A stretch of 64,000 nucleotides of DNA from Gemmatimonadales bacterium (lineage in GTDB: Bacteria > Gemmatimonadota > Gemmatimonadetes > Gemmatimonadales > GWC2-71-9), in contig DASYCE010000007.1 of NCBI GenBank assembly GCA_036500345.1, positions 186,001-250,000 on the forward strand, read 5' to 3'. Below the pieces are notes generated by a model. It was not told where the DNA came from. It did not search any database and saw only the letters and a program-made list of their open reading frames with translations. Positions 44,429 through 54,938 of this stretch are shown here, one piece after another. How positions within the stretch are numbered: position 1 is the stretch's first letter; every line of letters starts with the position of its first letter. The position numbers and the translations under genes are program-made.

Positions 44429-45505
44429 CTAGGCGACGTTCCTCTTGCTTCGCTTCGTCTCGCTCCGGCGCGCGATGGCATCGACCAGCACGCCGGGATC
44501 GAAGCGGACCGGGTCGGTCGCGGGGAGCCCGGTCTCCTTCGCTGCCGCATCGCACGCAGCCCGCGCGGCGACGTCGTCCAGATCGAAGGTGTTGAGTGCG
44601 ACGCCGATCACCCGGGACGGTCGCACAGCCCCCGCCAGGCTCTCGTACCATTCGATGTATCGCGACAGCGGCGGGATCTTCACCCACGAGGCAGCGCGGT
44701 AGTCGCCGAGCGACTCGCGCGACGGCTGATGGCAGAGGATCATGGCGTCCGGACACGAGCCGTGCAGCAGGCCCAGGGTGACGCCGCTGTAGCCGGGGTG
44801 GTTGATGCTTCCCTGCCCCTCCACGAGCACGACGTCCGCATCGGCGGCGCCTTGCAGGACGAGTTGCTCGGTCGCGCCGGCGATGAAGTCCGCAACCACG
44901 GCGTCAACGGCGATCCCCCATCCTTCGATCATGATGCCGGTCTGTCCGGTGGCAACGAAGCGGGTGCGAAGGCCGCGCGCATTCAGTTTTTCCACCAGTT
45001 GCAGTTGCGCGGTCATCTTGCCGACGTTGCAATCGGTCCCGACAGTGAGGACAACGAGCGGATCGACGTCGCGCGCGAGACCGGTGGCGACCTGGAGATC
45101 GGCAGGCGGGCGTCGGACATCGAGGATCTTCCGGCCGTGGCGGCGCGCCGCATCCGCGAGCTCGGGGTCGTCGGCAAGAAAGGTGTGCAATCCGCTGACG
45201 ACGTCGCAGCCGGCGGCGATGGCTTCCTTGATCCAGCCGCGCCATTCCTCGGGGAGCGCGCCGCCTTGCGGAGCGATGCCGATCAGGACGGCGTTGGCTC
45301 CGCGGGCGAGCCCGTCAGCGACCGATCCGACGACGGGAATCGCGCCGCCAAACCCGAGCACTTCTTCCGACGTCTTCCCGATCAACTGCCGATCAAGCAC
45401 CGCGACGACGCGCGACGGCTGATAGCGGATCACGGCGTTGGCGGTCTTCGACGTCATGATGCCGAAGTCGTGGTCCGCCAGGATGAGGTATTTCGGTTCG
45501 ATCAC
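44429..45505 (-). CDS. DUF1611 family P-loop protein
   Basis: 358 residues. The N-terminal Rossmann-like half starts YLILADHDFGIMTSKTANAVI. The C-terminal half has a P-loop-like GTDCNVGKMT at about residue 156-165 and a VEGQGSINHPGYSGV motif typical of the DUF1611 family. Some members (DgcN) act in D-glutamate metabolism, so a link to cell-wall D-amino acids is conceivable but unproven. It lies immediately after pspA with a 4-nt overlap, so the two are co-translated. Confidence 0.75.
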   Translation of the reverse strand: MIEPKYLILADHDFGIMTSKTANAVIRYQPSRVVAVLDRQLIGKTSEEVLGFGGAIPVVGSVADGLARGANAVLIGIAPQGGALPEEWRGWIKEAIAAGCDVVSGLHTFLADDPELADAARRHGRKILDVRRPPADLQVATGLARDVDPLVVLTVGTDCNVGKMTAQLQLVEKLNARGLRTRFVATGQTGIMIEGWGIAVDAVVADFIAGATEQLVLQGAADADVVLVEGQGSINHPGYSGVTLGLLHGSCPDAMILCHQPSRESLGDYRAASWVKIPPLSRYIEWYESLAGAVRPSRVIGVALNTFDLDDVAARAACDAAAKETGLPATDPVRFDPGVLVDAIARRSETKRSKRNVA

Positions 45506-46266
45506 GACGACTTGGACTCCTCCACCGGTGTCGCCGTCTTGGCCGGCACGCTGCCGCCGTCGCCGAGCTGCTTCGGCGCGTCCTTGCCTCCGGCAATCAT
45601 CGCCATCTTCGCCTTGAGTTCGATCAGTTGCTGATCGGACGAGCCGTGATATTCCAGCTGCTCGAATTGCTTGGCGAGCGAATCGCCGGTCATCTCCTCA
45701 TTGAGCTCGGCCGACGCGATCGCCTTCCGCTCGTTGGCCTCGATCTTCTCCTGCATCCGCTCGAACGACTCGAAGGCGCTCTTGTCACCCATGCCGGACA
45801 GTGTTTCCTGGATCCGCTGCTGCGCCTCGGCGCGGCGGGCGCGGGCGATGAGGATGTTCTTCTTCCGCTTTGCTTCCTCGATCTTGTCGTTGAGCTGGCG
45901 GAGCGAGCCCTTGAGGGACTCGGTTTCCTGCTTGCTCTTGACCCAGGTCTCGTGCAGCTGCTGCGCGCCCTGCAGCGCTTCGTTGTAGCGCATCAGCGCC
46001 TGCTTGGCGAGGTCGTCGCGTCCTTCCTGCACCGCGAGCATGGCGCGACGTTCCCAGTCCTCGGCCTGCTTCTGCTGCGCGATCGAATCGGCCTCGAGCT
46101 TCTTCTCGTCGGCGATCGCCTGCGCCACCTGCTGGCGCGCCTTGTCGAGCTGGCTGCGCATGTCGACGATCAGCTGGTTGAGCATCTTCTCGGGGTTTTC
46201 GGCCCGCGAGATCAGGTCGTTGAGATTCGACCGCACCATCGTCGCGAATCGATCAAAGATCCCCAT
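45502..46266 (-). CDS. pspA: PspA/IM30 family protein
   Basis: 254 residues, mostly alpha-helical coiled coil, typical of the ESCRT-III-related PspA/Vipp1 family. The N-terminus MGIFDRFATMVRSNLNDLI is the membrane-binding amphipathic helix. Family motifs SRAENPEKMLNQLIVDMRSQL and DWERRAMLAVQEGRDDLA follow. It ends with a Ser/Lys tail containing a Lys/Pro-rich patch. PspA oligomers maintain inner-membrane integrity and in enterobacteria also bind PspF. Here it lies in an operon with six PspB-like genes and no PspC or PspF was recognised. Confidence 0.93.
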   Translation of the reverse strand: MGIFDRFATMVRSNLNDLISRAENPEKMLNQLIVDMRSQLDKARQQVAQAIADEKKLEADSIAQQKQAEDWERRAMLAVQEGRDDLAKQALMRYNEALQGAQQLHETWVKSKQETESLKGSLRQLNDKIEEAKRKKNILIARARRAEAQQRIQETLSGMGDKSAFESFERMQEKIEANERKAIASAELNEEMTGDSLAKQFEQLEYHGSSDQQLIELKAKMAMIAGGKDAPKQLGDGGSVPAKTATPVEESKSS

Positions 46267-46268
46267 GA

Positions 46269-46655
46269 TTATTTCTCCCCGTACGGCGCCAGGGCCGTCA
46301 GATGCGACGCCAGCGCGAGGGCCAGCGAATCGACGCTCGACTGGAACTCGCTGAAGTCGAGATCGGTGAGCTCGAGCGCGTCGGTCAGCACGATGTGATC
46401 ACCCTCGATTCCGTACGACCCGTGCACCAGGTCCCTCGCGTTGAATTCGAGGAGGAGCCGGCTCAGCTCGCTGGCGCGGGTGACGTTGCTTGGCAGCGGC
46501 ATGACGCGCACGCGAAGCACCAGCACCGGCGGCGCGTAGTGCACCACCAGTTCCGCGCCTTCGGCGGTGCGCACCAGCCACATGTCTTCGGTCAGCAGTT
46601 CGACCGGCAGGTTGAGCCGATCGAGAAACGATCGGACGTCTTCACGCGTGGTCAT
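46269..46655 (-). CDS. YbjN/secretion-chaperone-like small protein
   Basis: 128 residues with alternating alpha and beta segments like YbjN or type III chaperone folds: VRSFLDRLNLPVELLTEDMW, ELVVHYAPPVLVLRVRVMP and ELTDLDFSEFQSSVDSLALAL. No membrane segment is seen. It lies 2 nt upstream of pspA and 55 nt downstream of the six-gene array. Chaperone or adaptor for the neighbouring coiled-coil proteins is inferred from the fold and position only. Confidence 0.65.
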   Translation of the reverse strand: MTTREDVRSFLDRLNLPVELLTEDMWLVRTAEGAELVVHYAPPVLVLRVRVMPLPSNVTRASELSRLLLEFNARDLVHGSYGIEGDHIVLTDALELTDLDFSEFQSSVDSLALALASHLTALAPYGEK

Positions 46656-46710: not shown

Positions 46711-47058
46711 TCACGACTGCTGCTCGCTGCTCTGCTTGGTGAGGATCCGCTCCGAAAAATCGACGCGCTCCTCAAGTTCGGACACCCGGGCCCGCAGGTC
46801 GTCGAGCTCGCCATAGACTTCCTGGGGAAGTTCGGGCGAGTCGGCCGGCGAATGGCCGCTGATCCGCGTCGCCAGCGCTTGTCCGAGCGGCCCGCGAAAG
46901 ATCATCATACCGGCCCAGCCGGCGATCGCCCAGATCGGAATCGACGCCGGCCCGATCCTCGACGTGACCCACGCGAGCGCGCCCGCGACACCGGCGGCGC
47001 CGAAGCCCAATCCGACGAAGGCCGAACCGATCCACTCGTTGCTGCGATCACGTGCCAT
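46711..47058 (-). CDS. Psp-like small membrane protein, array member 1
   Basis: 115 residues. Two hydrophobic stretches (WIGSAFVGLGFGAAGVAGALAWVT; IPIWAIAGWAGMMIF) are followed by a juxtamembrane FRGPLGQALATRI and a coiled coil with VYGELDDLRARVSELEERVDFSERIL. The closing motif EERVDFSERIL is shared with the five other array members. It directly abuts member 2 and is the last of the six in transcription order. See the array finding. Confidence 0.8.
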   Translation of the reverse strand: MARDRSNEWIGSAFVGLGFGAAGVAGALAWVTSRIGPASIPIWAIAGWAGMMIFRGPLGQALATRISGHSPADSPELPQEVYGELDDLRARVSELEERVDFSERILTKQSSEQQS

Positions 47059-47439
47059 CTATCGCTCCGGCTTCTGCAGGGCGCCGAGCGAATCGCGCTG
47101 CGCGAGCAGTCGCTCGGCAAAATCGAGCCGCTCCTCGAGTTCGGCGATGCGGTGCTGATCGAGCGAGAGATCGGCGACGCGGTCCTCGACGTGATCGAAT
47201 CGCGAGACCAGCTGCGAATCGTCGGCGGTGCCGCCGTCAAGCATCTTCGCGATCGCGCGCCCGACCGGCCCTCGAAAAAGGACACCGAAGATGACAGCAC
47301 CGGCTACCATGCCGAAGGCCGGGGTCGGATCACGAATGGTGTGAGCTTCCTCGACCATGGCAATCAGGAAGCCGATCGCCATGCCGGTGAGGCCAAGAGT
47401 CAGCACCCCGCCGACGACTTTGGACCAGGTGCTGTTCAT
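47059..47439 (-). CDS. Psp-like small membrane protein, array member 2
   Basis: 126 residues. Two hydrophobic stretches (VVGGVLTLGLTGMAIGFLIAM; AFGMVAGAVIFGVLF) precede FRGPVGRAIAKMLDGG. The coiled coil VSRFDHVEDRVADLSLDQHR leads to ELEERLDFAERLL. It most closely resembles member 1 in topology and in the FRGPxG juxtamembrane motif. Its start overlaps the stop of member 3 by 4 nt. Confidence 0.8.
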   Translation of the reverse strand: MNSTWSKVVGGVLTLGLTGMAIGFLIAMVEEAHTIRDPTPAFGMVAGAVIFGVLFRGPVGRAIAKMLDGGTADDSQLVSRFDHVEDRVADLSLDQHRIAELEERLDFAERLLAQRDSLGALQKPER

Positions 47440-47714
47440 ACGGGTGTCCTGTGCAGTGAGGGAGGAGCGTCTTCGGTTCGACCGACGAGCATCCGCTCGG
47501 CGAAATCGACCCGCTCCTCGAGTTCGAGGATCCGATCGTTCGACGCCTCGAGATCGGCGACACGCTGCCGGAGGTCATCGAGTGCTCGGGTGGCGCCGCC
47601 GTCGCCAGCCTGTGCGTCGATCCGCCGAGCCCACGCGCGAAACACCGGCAGCAAGAGAATAGCGGCGACGACGAGCGTCGCGATCGCAAGCATCGTGACA
47701 TCATCGGATTTCAT
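47436..47714 (-). CDS. Psp-like small membrane protein, array member 3
   Basis: 92 residues, with one N-terminal membrane helix (MLAIATLVVAAILLLPVF), a basic juxtamembrane region (RAWARRID) and a coiled coil LDDLRQRVADLEASNDR, then ELEERVDFAERML. The C-terminus LHRTPV is repeated in member 4 (AHRTPV), pointing to a recent duplication. 4-nt overlaps on both sides. Confidence 0.8.
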   Translation of the reverse strand: MKSDDVTMLAIATLVVAAILLLPVFRAWARRIDAQAGDGGATRALDDLRQRVADLEASNDRILELEERVDFAERMLVGRTEDAPPSLHRTPV

Positions 47715-47995
47715 ACTGGCGTCCGGTGCGCGGCGGGAAGTTCCGGAGCCTGGGTTCGCTGAGCGAGCAACCGCTCGGCGAAGTCAACTCGTTCCTCGAG
47801 CTCCTGCACCCGCAGACTGACAGCGTCGAGTTCGGCGACCCGGTCGCGGAGCTGCGCCACGTCTTCGGTCAATTCGTCGTGCGGCGCGGCACGACGTTGC
47901 GCGTGCTGCACCACGCCTCGAACGATCGGGAATATGAGTCCGGTTACACAGCCGATCGTGACGATGATGATCGCCGTCTGTTGTCCGTCGGTCAT
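47711..47995 (-). CDS. Psp-like small membrane protein, array member 4
   Basis: 94 residues. One N-terminal membrane helix (AIIIVTIGCVTGLIFPIV) is followed by RRAAPHDELTEDVAQLRDRVAELD and ELEERVDFAERLL. The C-terminal HRTPV is shared with member 3. The nearest architecture is PspB: single helix plus a coiled coil. 4-nt overlaps on both sides. Confidence 0.8.
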   Translation of the reverse strand: MTDGQQTAIIIVTIGCVTGLIFPIVRGVVQHAQRRAAPHDELTEDVAQLRDRVAELDAVSLRVQELEERVDFAERLLAQRTQAPELPAAHRTPV

Positions 47996-48279
47996 ACGCG
48001 ATTCCCATTGGGCACCGAGTCACCAGGCTTGAGGAGGATCCGCTCGGCGAAATCGAGGCGCTCGTGCGATTCGGCGAGCTGGGCGTGGACATCATCAAGC
48101 TCGGCCCGCAGCTGATCGAGATCGGTGCGCATCTGCTCCAGGTCACGACGCACGGCAGCGCCCTCGTTGGCGCCACTGTTGTGGCGGATCGCATCGGCGA
48201 TCGAGCGGCCGATCTCGCTCCGGGTCACGATCCCCAGGATCGGGATCGACAGGATCATGATGATGACGACGAACCACAT
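47992..48279 (-). CDS. Psp-like small membrane protein, array member 5
   Basis: 95 residues. The N-terminal membrane helix MWFVVIIMILSIPILGIV is followed by TRSEIGRSIADAIRHN, the juxtamembrane motif shared in part with members 1, 2 and 6. A long coiled coil (DLEQMRTDLDQLRAELDDVH) ends ESHERLDFAERIL. 3 nt after member 6. Confidence 0.8.
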   Translation of the reverse strand: MWFVVIIMILSIPILGIVTRSEIGRSIADAIRHNSGANEGAAVRRDLEQMRTDLDQLRAELDDVHAQLAESHERLDFAERILLKPGDSVPNGNRV

Positions 48280-48282
48280 GGT

Positions 48283-48540
48283 CTACTCCGTTGCCGCAGG
48301 TTGCTCAGGCGGCTTCATGAGCATCCGTTCGGCGAAGTCGAGACGTTCCTGCAATTCGCTCACGTCGGCACGGAGGCGATCGAGTTCGTCATAGATGGCG
48401 GGGTCGGTGTCCGGACCGGCGGGCGGAATTGCCTTGCCATGCCGCAGCCGGTCGGCGATCGCGCGTCCAATCGGGGAGAACGCCAGCGCCACGATGCCGG
48501 ATCCACCGAAGATCAGAATGATCGCCAGAATGTCTTCCAT
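48283..48540 (-). CDS. Psp-like small membrane protein, array member 6 (first transcribed)
   Basis: 85 residues, first gene of the operon. The N-terminal helix ILAIILIFGGSGIVALAF precedes SPIGRAIADRLRHG. The coiled coil YDELDRLRADVSELQERLDF ends AERMLMKP. GAGGGAG sits about 4-8 nt before the ATG. The 98-nt gap to the end of sdaAA is the likely promoter region, although no clear promoter was recognised. Confidence 0.8.
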   Translation of the reverse strand: MEDILAIILIFGGSGIVALAFSPIGRAIADRLRHGKAIPPAGPDTDPAIYDELDRLRADVSELQERLDFAERMLMKPPEQPAATE

Positions 48541-48638
48541 TGCTCCCTCGCCAGAGGCCCACCGTCATGGCCCTTCGCAAACTTGTTCATCGTCTACGAA
48601 GCGGCGCCGCCAAATGTTTCATGAGGAAACGGGATCGA

Positions 48639-50415: not shown

Positions 50416-53310
<2,895 letters not shown>

Positions 53311-53390
53311 AGCCGTGAAGAGTACAGCGGACCGGCGTCGGGTGCTGCGGTCTCCCTTCGTCAGGCCCGACCCTTGCTGCAAGGACCCCA

Positions 53391-54938
53391 ATGCTTGAGC
53401 TCTACCGCCCGTCCGCCAGAGCCAGTGTTGCCGTGGCGATCCTGATCGCCTGGACGGCGTCGTTGGGGTGGCTTGGCAAGCGCCAGCTGGGCAAGTCCGA
53501 GGAATCAACGCTGTCGGCCGAGGCGACGCTCCGGCTCGCGCCGGCGACAACCTGGTACGCGATCACCGCCGGTCCGGTCCAGATCGGTTACGCCGGAATC
53601 ACGTTCGACACGTTGTCGCCCGGCTACCGGGTCACCGAGGCAACGGCGATCGAGATGCCATCGGCGTCGGCGACCGAGCGGGTGACCCGGCGGACGGTGG
53701 CGTGGCTCGCGGCGACGCTGGAACTGCAGCGGATGGAATCGGGACTTGGCGTGGGCGGGCACCACAGCGACTGGAAGGTCGAGGTGAGCGGCGACACCGT
53801 CACCACCCGATTCCTTTCGGCGACTTCGCGCGCCCAGGGTAGTGCGCGATTCAGCGAGGCTCCCACCGCTGCCGTCGCGATCCCCTATCGGCTGGCGCTG
53901 ACCGACGGGCTGGCTCCGGGACGGACTCGCACCATTGCACCGATCGACGGCTGGCCGCCGTCAGTCCGGGTCATTGCGGTCAAGGCCGAAGGTGATTCGG
54001 AAATCCGATTCGCCGACAGCACTGTCGCAACACCGGGTGGAACCGGACGGGTGGCGGTGCATTTCGATTCGGTCCGCGCAGTGTCAGTGGCGGTCGATGC
54101 CGCGACCGGACCGGTCAGGATCTGGATCGATCGACGCGGAGTCGTCGCCGGCCTCGCTCGTCCTCTCGGCGTGCGATGGGTGCGCACCGACTTCGACCTC
54201 AGCACCACCAACTTTCGCGACGCGCTTCCCTCACACGTCGACACCATTCGCACGGCACTCCCCGAGCTGGGCCGGTACGCCGCCCTTCCGGTCGCAGACA
54301 CCGGCATGATGACGCGACGGTTCGTGGTCTCCCATCGCGATGGATCAGCGGTCGACGATCGACTCCTTGCGATGCTCACGGGCGGTCGACAGCAAGTGCG
54401 CGGTGACACCATCATCGTCCAGCGGATCGGGACGGGACACGATCAGCGCACATCCGACACGGTTCCCGATCCGATGATCCAGGAACACGCCGGCTTGATC
54501 GTGAGCTGGGAACACCGCCTGGTGGGCGGACCATTCACGGCGCAGCGTCTTCCGGCGCTGCTCGCGGCGGTCCGTGCGGCGATCTCCATAGACACGTCGA
54601 TTGACGCCGCCCAGGATGCGCTCGGCACGCTCGCAGTGCGGGCTGGTTCACCCGACGGGATCGCCAGATTGATGGTCGCGGTGCTTCGGCGCGCCGGGAT
54701 GCCGGCGCGCTACGTGGTGGGCGTCTATCCGCGCGGGACGGCGTTGTTGACCCATGCATGGGTCGAGGTGTGGGCGCCGCAGAACGGCGGGTGGATCGGG
54801 ATCGATCCCGCATCCGGAAATTTCGCCAGCACCGGATTGATCCGCCTGGCGTTCGCCGGCTCAAGCCGCCCGGAGGAGATGATGATGCAGCTGGCCAACG
54901 CCCGCGTCGATACCGCGAGCGCCGGAGGTTTGCCATGA
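53391..54938 (+). CDS. Membrane-anchored protein with degenerate transglutaminase-like domain
   Basis: 515 residues. One N-terminal hydrophobic segment ([18 protein letters not shown]) suggests an anchored periplasmic protein. A beta-rich body is followed by a transglutaminase-like domain at about residues 415-475: [25 protein letters not shown], then His455 in THAWVEVW and Asp472 in IGIDPAS. The catalytic Cys expected near residue 421 (family GxC) is replaced by Ser-Pro-Asp (SPDG), so peptidase/transglutaminase activity is doubtful. The stop overlaps the start of the ABC ATPase, implying coupling. Confidence 0.72.

Follow-up and report, generated by a model that had tools for sequence, protein, structure and literature searches.

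In the proteobacterial pspFABCD system, PspA is accompanied by PspB (PF06667/TIGR02976), a small protein with an N-terminal transmembrane (TM) segment and a cytosolic coil ending in E-R-[IV]-x3-E-x-[IL]-L, which is encoded in one copy downstream of pspA, together with pspC and under sigma-54/PspF control. Duplicates of pspB are occasionally reported (PMC11237479). It has been found that E. coli PspB self-associates and touches PspC, not PspA (PMC3068692). In Bacillus subtilis, the pspA-ydjGHI operon belongs to the SigW regulon (PMC3498285), and YdjG and YdjH are required for the membrane recruitment of PspA (PMC8581546). A further arrangement is the CesT/Tir-PspA dyad, in which a CesT_Tir_1 gene directly precedes pspA (Ravi et al., 2024; PMC11237479).

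Here we describe a pspA locus of a Gemmatimonadales bacterium, contained in a window of 64,000 nucleotides, in which CesT_Tir_1 directly precedes pspA as in the dyad and an array of six small membrane-protein genes lies further upstream. Like PspB, the array proteins are small, with an N-terminal TM segment and a cytosolic coil of similar ending, and their genes adjoin pspA, although the array is multi-copy and lies upstream. The locus shares with pspA-ydjGHI a SigW-type promoter pattern and membrane proteins whose genes are co-transcribed with pspA (PMC3498285, PMC8581546), a co-transcription that is predicted for the array, but in Bacillus pspA comes first, a paralogue array is absent, and published descriptions set YdjG/H/I apart as a different kind of protein. 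Compared with the CesT/Tir-PspA dyad, these loci have the array in addition and frequently lack CesT; the text of the dyad paper (PMC11237479) leaves Gemmatimonadota unmentioned, and the sections consulted describe no small-membrane-protein array. A search of the literature library returned no paper in which Gemmatimonadota are named alongside PspA and phage shock. The locus is a real, conserved PspA stress operon whose small-membrane-protein array is apparently undescribed.

Gene organisation of the array

The features of the locus are collected in Table 1. All six minus-strand open reading frames of 85-126 residues reported between 48540 and 46711 by the initial annotation exist with the lengths given there, and the juxtamembrane G-R/Q-A/S-I/L-A motif that it assigned to four of them is indeed carried by genes 1, 2, 5 and 6, having diverged in genes 3 and 4 (IVRGVV, VFRAWA). 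Other details needed amendment. The signature is shared by all six proteins, but it lies near the C-terminus and does not close the protein, because a variable tail of 9-17 residues follows. The 4-nt overlaps hold for junctions 2/3, 3/4 and 4/5, whereas the remaining two of the five are gaps of 3 and 0 bases. The range of one or two membrane segments stands, with one helix in genes 1-4 and two scored in gene 5; gene 6 has one in a hydropathy scan and a second, weaker hydrophobic stretch before RGPLGQALA.

Table 1. Features of the pspA locus, in window coordinates.
Feature	Position	Strand	Remarks
dyad GTTTC-N5-GAAAC	48616..48630	-	overlaps -35 box; read in sequence
ECF (SigW-type) promoter-like site TGAAAC-N17-CGTA	48595..48621	-	81 nt before gene 1
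array gene 1	48283..48540	-	85 aa; subtype B, MEDI type; TM, IGRAIA, QERLDFAERML
array gene 2	47992..48279	-	95 aa; TM, IGRSIA, HERLDFAERIL
array gene 3	47711..47995	-	94 aa; TM, EERVDFAERLL; 4-nt overlap with gene 2
array gene 4	47436..47714	-	92 aa; TM, EERVDFAERML; 4-nt overlap with gene 3
array gene 5	47059..47439	-	126 aa; two TM, VGRAIA, EERLDFAERLL; 4-nt overlap with gene 4
array gene 6	46711..47058	-	115 aa; subtype D, last before CesT; LGQALA, EERVDFSERIL
CesT_Tir_1-family (YbjN-like) protein	46269..46655	-	128 aa; PF22550 E 8.8e-22
pspA	45502..46266	-	254 aa; PF04012 E 7e-50
uvrA, upstream landmark	50416..53550	-	read from translation; true start inside ORF

CesT-pspA starts 55 bases after gene 6. 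The CesT_Tir_1 protein scores 77.9 bits with PF22550, above the curated cut-off of 27, and PspA scores 170 bits with PF04012, also above its curated cut-off, and is full-length (profile positions 1-218 of 220). A genome search found this pspA as the sole PspA/IM30 gene. Serine dehydratase genes separate uvrA from the array in the window; in many relatives uvrA adjoins the array directly, and across array loci it is the most usual gene upstream.

The six window genes are true paralogues of one family. A profile built from any five of them scores the held-out sixth at 47-61 bits, against no more than 22 bits for local shuffles (500 per gene) with the same profiles. Genes 2-6 are 28-35% identical to gene 1 and are therefore old paralogues, not repeated DNA. 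The six proteins have no Pfam or NCBIfam assignment; coiled-coil matches to WD40_alt and DUF5798 were judged generic, and a PDB sequence search returned coils and channels only.

Conservation in the Gemmatimonadota

When 150 Gemmatimonadota genomes were searched with a profile, each of the 35 that belong to the window's family (GTDB GWC2-71-9) had matches, mostly 4-17 per genome, whereas genomes of other families usually had 1-3 weak ones. Fetched neighbourhoods and a scan of named genomes yielded 67 distinct loci in which pspA could also be seen; the best 80 matches of the named-genome scan all carried the titles Gemmatimonadetes/Gemmatimonadota or Gemmatimonadales, except 'Bacterium HR33'. 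The array is always upstream of (CesT)-pspA and on the same strand (67/67), with 1-11 copies and a median of 4 (copies:loci 1:1, 2:6, 3:14, 4:16, 5:11, 6:9, 7:6, 8:2, 9:1 and 11:1). Adjacent members overlap at 123 of the 239 internal junctions, the overlap being exactly 4 nt in 87 cases, and are spaced by 0-50 nt at another 103. At least one member lies directly upstream of pspA in 31 of the 32 pspA-bearing genomes of the window's family, a count that takes in one array interrupted by the end of a contig. In the one exceptional genome (G103), CesT-pspA stands by itself, the array is absent and 13 members are dispersed. Neither pspA nor the array was detected in a genome of the window's own genus (G141, 99% complete), and when the serine dehydratase next to the array was used there as a landmark for the vacant site, it gave no match. 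In a distant family, a single member precedes CesT-pspA (L120). On the three points that the initial annotation had itself put at risk, the proteins form one family, the motif is conserved in orthologues and the array is conserved with pspA; judged by sequence comparison, the layout is conserved across one family of Gemmatimonadota, whose members are soil and water bacteria.

For the DIFFERENTIATED paralogues, the best match of 294/305 array proteins lies in another locus, not in a neighbouring gene, and this still holds for 254/305 when only loci with PspA less than 70% identical are allowed. A recent amplification of the array was rejected, as most paralogues match other genomes best. Louvain clustering gave subtypes that are rough, subtype A above all, and do not represent a tree; among them, the MEDI type of window gene 1 occurs in 57/67 loci, mostly near the 5' end, the subtype of gene 6 is usually the last before CesT, and certain orders recur (for example BFGEC or BAAD). 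The array genes are thus one old, differentiated family.

The array is also INDEPENDENCE from CesT: CesT lies between the array and pspA in 30/67 loci and is missing in 37/67. A CesT-family search found none anywhere in several genomes with CesT-less loci that are 98-99% complete (G013, G014, G002, G015), and the array stays beside pspA where CesT has been lost from the genome. Conversely, the sister families examined have CesT-pspA but no array before it, and CesT_Tir_1 directly precedes pspA in most other Gemmatimonadota loci examined.

Promoter patterns

The published SigW consensus is TGAAACN16,17CGTA (PMC2375139), and TGAAAC-N16/17-CGTA has a single match in the window (expected 0.03). 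The pattern TGA[A/C]AC-N15..17-CGTA was found upstream of 38/67 arrays, with none on the opposite strand and 0.06 in shuffles. Outside these upstream stretches, 1.73 Mb of DNA contained 15 sites, compared with 38 site-bearing loci within 30 kb, a roughly 150-fold enrichment of sites before arrays over flanking DNA. Of 22 CesT-pspA loci that have no array next to them, 6 carry the pattern as well, and the array therefore appears to sit between the stress promoter of pspA and pspA itself. Sigma-54, SigE-like and sigma-70 patterns upstream of arrays stayed at chance level, with sigma-54/PspF-type sites in 1/63 upstream regions against 0.5 in shuffles.

The promoter pattern is missing from the remaining 29/67 loci, many of which have the array immediately behind uvrA. 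These uvrA-adjoining loci are nearly all CesT-less, with a uvrA-array gap of 9-50 nt, and a uvrA-like C-terminus (EHNLDV) was read upstream of arrays; perhaps uvrA and the array form one transcript in CesT-less genomes. The dyad of Table 1, of which the -35 box is one half, is followed by CGTA at N16-17 in 11/67 loci and in 0 shuffles; it is perhaps an operator. A second promoter class was also noted: TGACACTTTTTGAAAC.

Predicted protein architecture

One TM-like segment was scored in 270 of 306 members and two or more in 22. In single-TM members, the 15 residues after the TM segment hold a mean of 3.1 K+R compared to 0.4 before it, which by the positive-inside rule places the coil in the cytosol (C-in). 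For gene 1, AlphaFold (mean pLDDT 82) predicts helices 2-21, 23-35 and 47-75, the last with a pLDDT of 97-98 in its core. In each window protein, the predicted one or two membrane helices are accompanied by a juxtamembrane helix with positive charge and by a helix in the cytosol that ends in ER-x-DF-x-ER-x-L. Relative to the signature, hydrophobic residues at -16, -12, -9, -5, -2, +2, +5 and +9 make a regular heptad. D+3, F+4, E+6 and R+7 are nearly invariant and lie off the heptad core; anchor positions are conserved by construction, from which E+6 (99%) and L+9 (94%) are exempt. An outward patch so conserved (D, F, E, R) suggests a shared partner. A 56-residue array member consisting of the tail only, without a membrane segment, was seen at L040:7918-8088.

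Relationship to PspB and relatives outside the array

The link to PspB drawn by the initial annotation is suggestive only. The window genes reach at best 12.9 bits with PF06667, below its curated cut-off of 25.6, and no array member passes the PspB cut-offs of Pfam or NCBIfam, 5/70 being weakly similar (best E 8.4e-4). The window genome gave no PspB match and no match to PF04024 (PspC) in a search that finds PspC in E. coli. On the other side, in blind searches with the array profile, pspB was the top match in a psp-carrying E. coli plasmid of 252 kb (E 0.005); in an Aeromonas record of 4.9 Mb it came second (E 0.07), after a TM-coil protein that is unrelated. Alignment of the array with PspB by hhalign gave 54% over 53 columns in the right register, using two PspB sequences only, against 1.4% for the Aeromonas TM-coil protein as decoy. 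A bridging protein encoded after a Ser/Thr kinase (L146:2364-2657) exceeds the Pfam PspB cut-off of 25.6 with 27.3 bits, matches the array profile at E 8.8e-10, and combines a PspB-like W-x-L-H-Y (WLHLHY in the TM segment) with an array-like HERIDFTERLL. The PspB sequences of E. coli and Aeromonas lack the D, F and R of ERxDFxER that are invariant in the array. A distant common origin of the array and PspB is plausible on these comparisons.

The array tail also occurs elsewhere. A TM2-domain protein with the C-terminal coil and motif is encoded away from pspA (G000:C15:188495-188656, corresponding to L071:8253-8663; L277:1495-1881); this carrier is found in the window's genome, with an orthologue in the same-genus genome that has no detectable pspA. 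Another protein (L273:1357-1737), with a hydrophobic N-terminal half and an ERLDFAERLL tail, is encoded immediately ahead of the gene for a PadR-like regulator; pspA was undetected in that genome. In the sister family, 7/10 loci examined show an operon of a histidine kinase, 1-3 tandem relatives, an NtrC-type sigma-54 response regulator, an Omp85-like protein and DUF4390 (L128:5932-12487, L130, L131, L132, L133, L143, L144), which resembles NtrYX operons. These distant relatives are also tandem and belong to an envelope-linked signalling operon, but pspA is not nearby, the motif has diverged to ERISEGQRFTTKLL and several N-termini are longer. The tails and relatives outside the array thus point to a module used more widely in envelope signalling, and PspA need not be its sole partner.

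Proposed function and alternatives

The PspB-type sensor first proposed for the array finds no support in a locus with no detectable PspC and a SigW-like ECF promoter pattern instead of a sigma-54/PspF promoter, and with moderate confidence we replace it with a co-induced anchoring platform. At a probability of roughly 0.5, the array would be a stress-induced membrane platform that organises PspA, its proteins recruiting or nucleating PspA at the inner membrane. The model builds on the family, its predicted topology, the promoter pattern and the linkage to pspA; induction, mixed oligomers and PspA docking are what it would add. Upon envelope stress, an ECF sigma factor would drive joint transcription of the array, CesT and pspA. 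The small array proteins would insert with differing membrane anchors and juxtamembrane helices, their C-terminal heptad helices would join them into mixed oligomers, and the outward patch (D, F, E, R) would recruit or nucleate ESCRT-III-like PspA at the inner membrane. By analogy with YdjG/YdjH, on which this anchor is modelled, the array could take over their anchoring job, or part of that of PspB/PspC; no SPFH partner (YdjI) was found among the window neighbours scanned with Pfam. The same-genus genome without either pspA or array speaks for such a platform. Against it stand the tails on TM2-domain and dispersed proteins, the genome with CesT-pspA and no array (G103), the other families that keep CesT-pspA without it and the 29/67 loci without the promoter pattern. 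E. coli PspB, which touches PspC but not PspA (PMC3068692), also cautions against carrying the Bacillus analogy over directly. More tentatively, the locus may be a phage-shock system built in a new way, the array being an ECF-induced heteromeric scaffold of up to eleven differentiated paralogues whose shared helix assembles PspA/ESCRT-III-like polymers and replaces PspB/PspC, with CesT dispensable.

The array proteins might instead be general stress-induced envelope proteins that form their own assemblies, leave PspA untouched and use the pspA operon for co-expression only. The portable tail would be expected of such proteins, being found on TM2-domain and dispersed proteins, including some from a genome in which pspA was undetected, as would the sister-family relatives between a histidine kinase and a sigma-54 regulator, away from pspA. 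As pspA nevertheless directly adjoins the array in 67 loci, even after CesT loss, and the outward-facing invariant residues suggest a common partner, we regard this explanation as unlikely, albeit one with a real chance of being correct. It is improbable that the array is an expanded set of true PspB orthologues which sense stress and free PspA from a regulator: the same size, TM and coil topology, pspA linkage, hhalign result, pspB ranks in the E. coli plasmid and Aeromonas searches and bridging protein (L146:2364-2657) are offset by the PspB cut-off that no array member passes, the absence of PspC, sigma-54-like sites at chance level, invariant D/F/R not found in PspB and the unrelated TM-coil protein that outranked pspB in Aeromonas.

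The position of CesT between array and pspA in 30/67 loci, along with the known CesT/Tir-PspA dyads (PMC11237479), could also mean that the array proteins are clients of a CesT-like chaperone which delivers them to PspA. The array persists in the 37/67 loci without CesT, whose genomes also lack it where tested, and CesT-pspA occurs without the array in other families, which makes such a role very improbable. A merely accidental likeness among short coiled-coil ORFs of GC-rich DNA, to which short, GC-rich, overlapping frames and generic coiled-coil Pfam matches might be put down, is already refuted by the held-out profile scores and by orthologues in conserved order in dozens of genomes.

Perspectives

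A membrane platform organising PspA would be of interest as the placement of PspA polymers and their nucleation on membranes are open questions outside a few models. Here, one cytosolic helix has been kept by selection on many membrane anchors beside pspA. This singles out the residues that probably make contact (D, F, E, R), and the array family supplies dozens of natural variants for testing. Together, the losses of CesT and the ECF promoter pattern point to a stress operon that has been rewired in a little-studied phylum.
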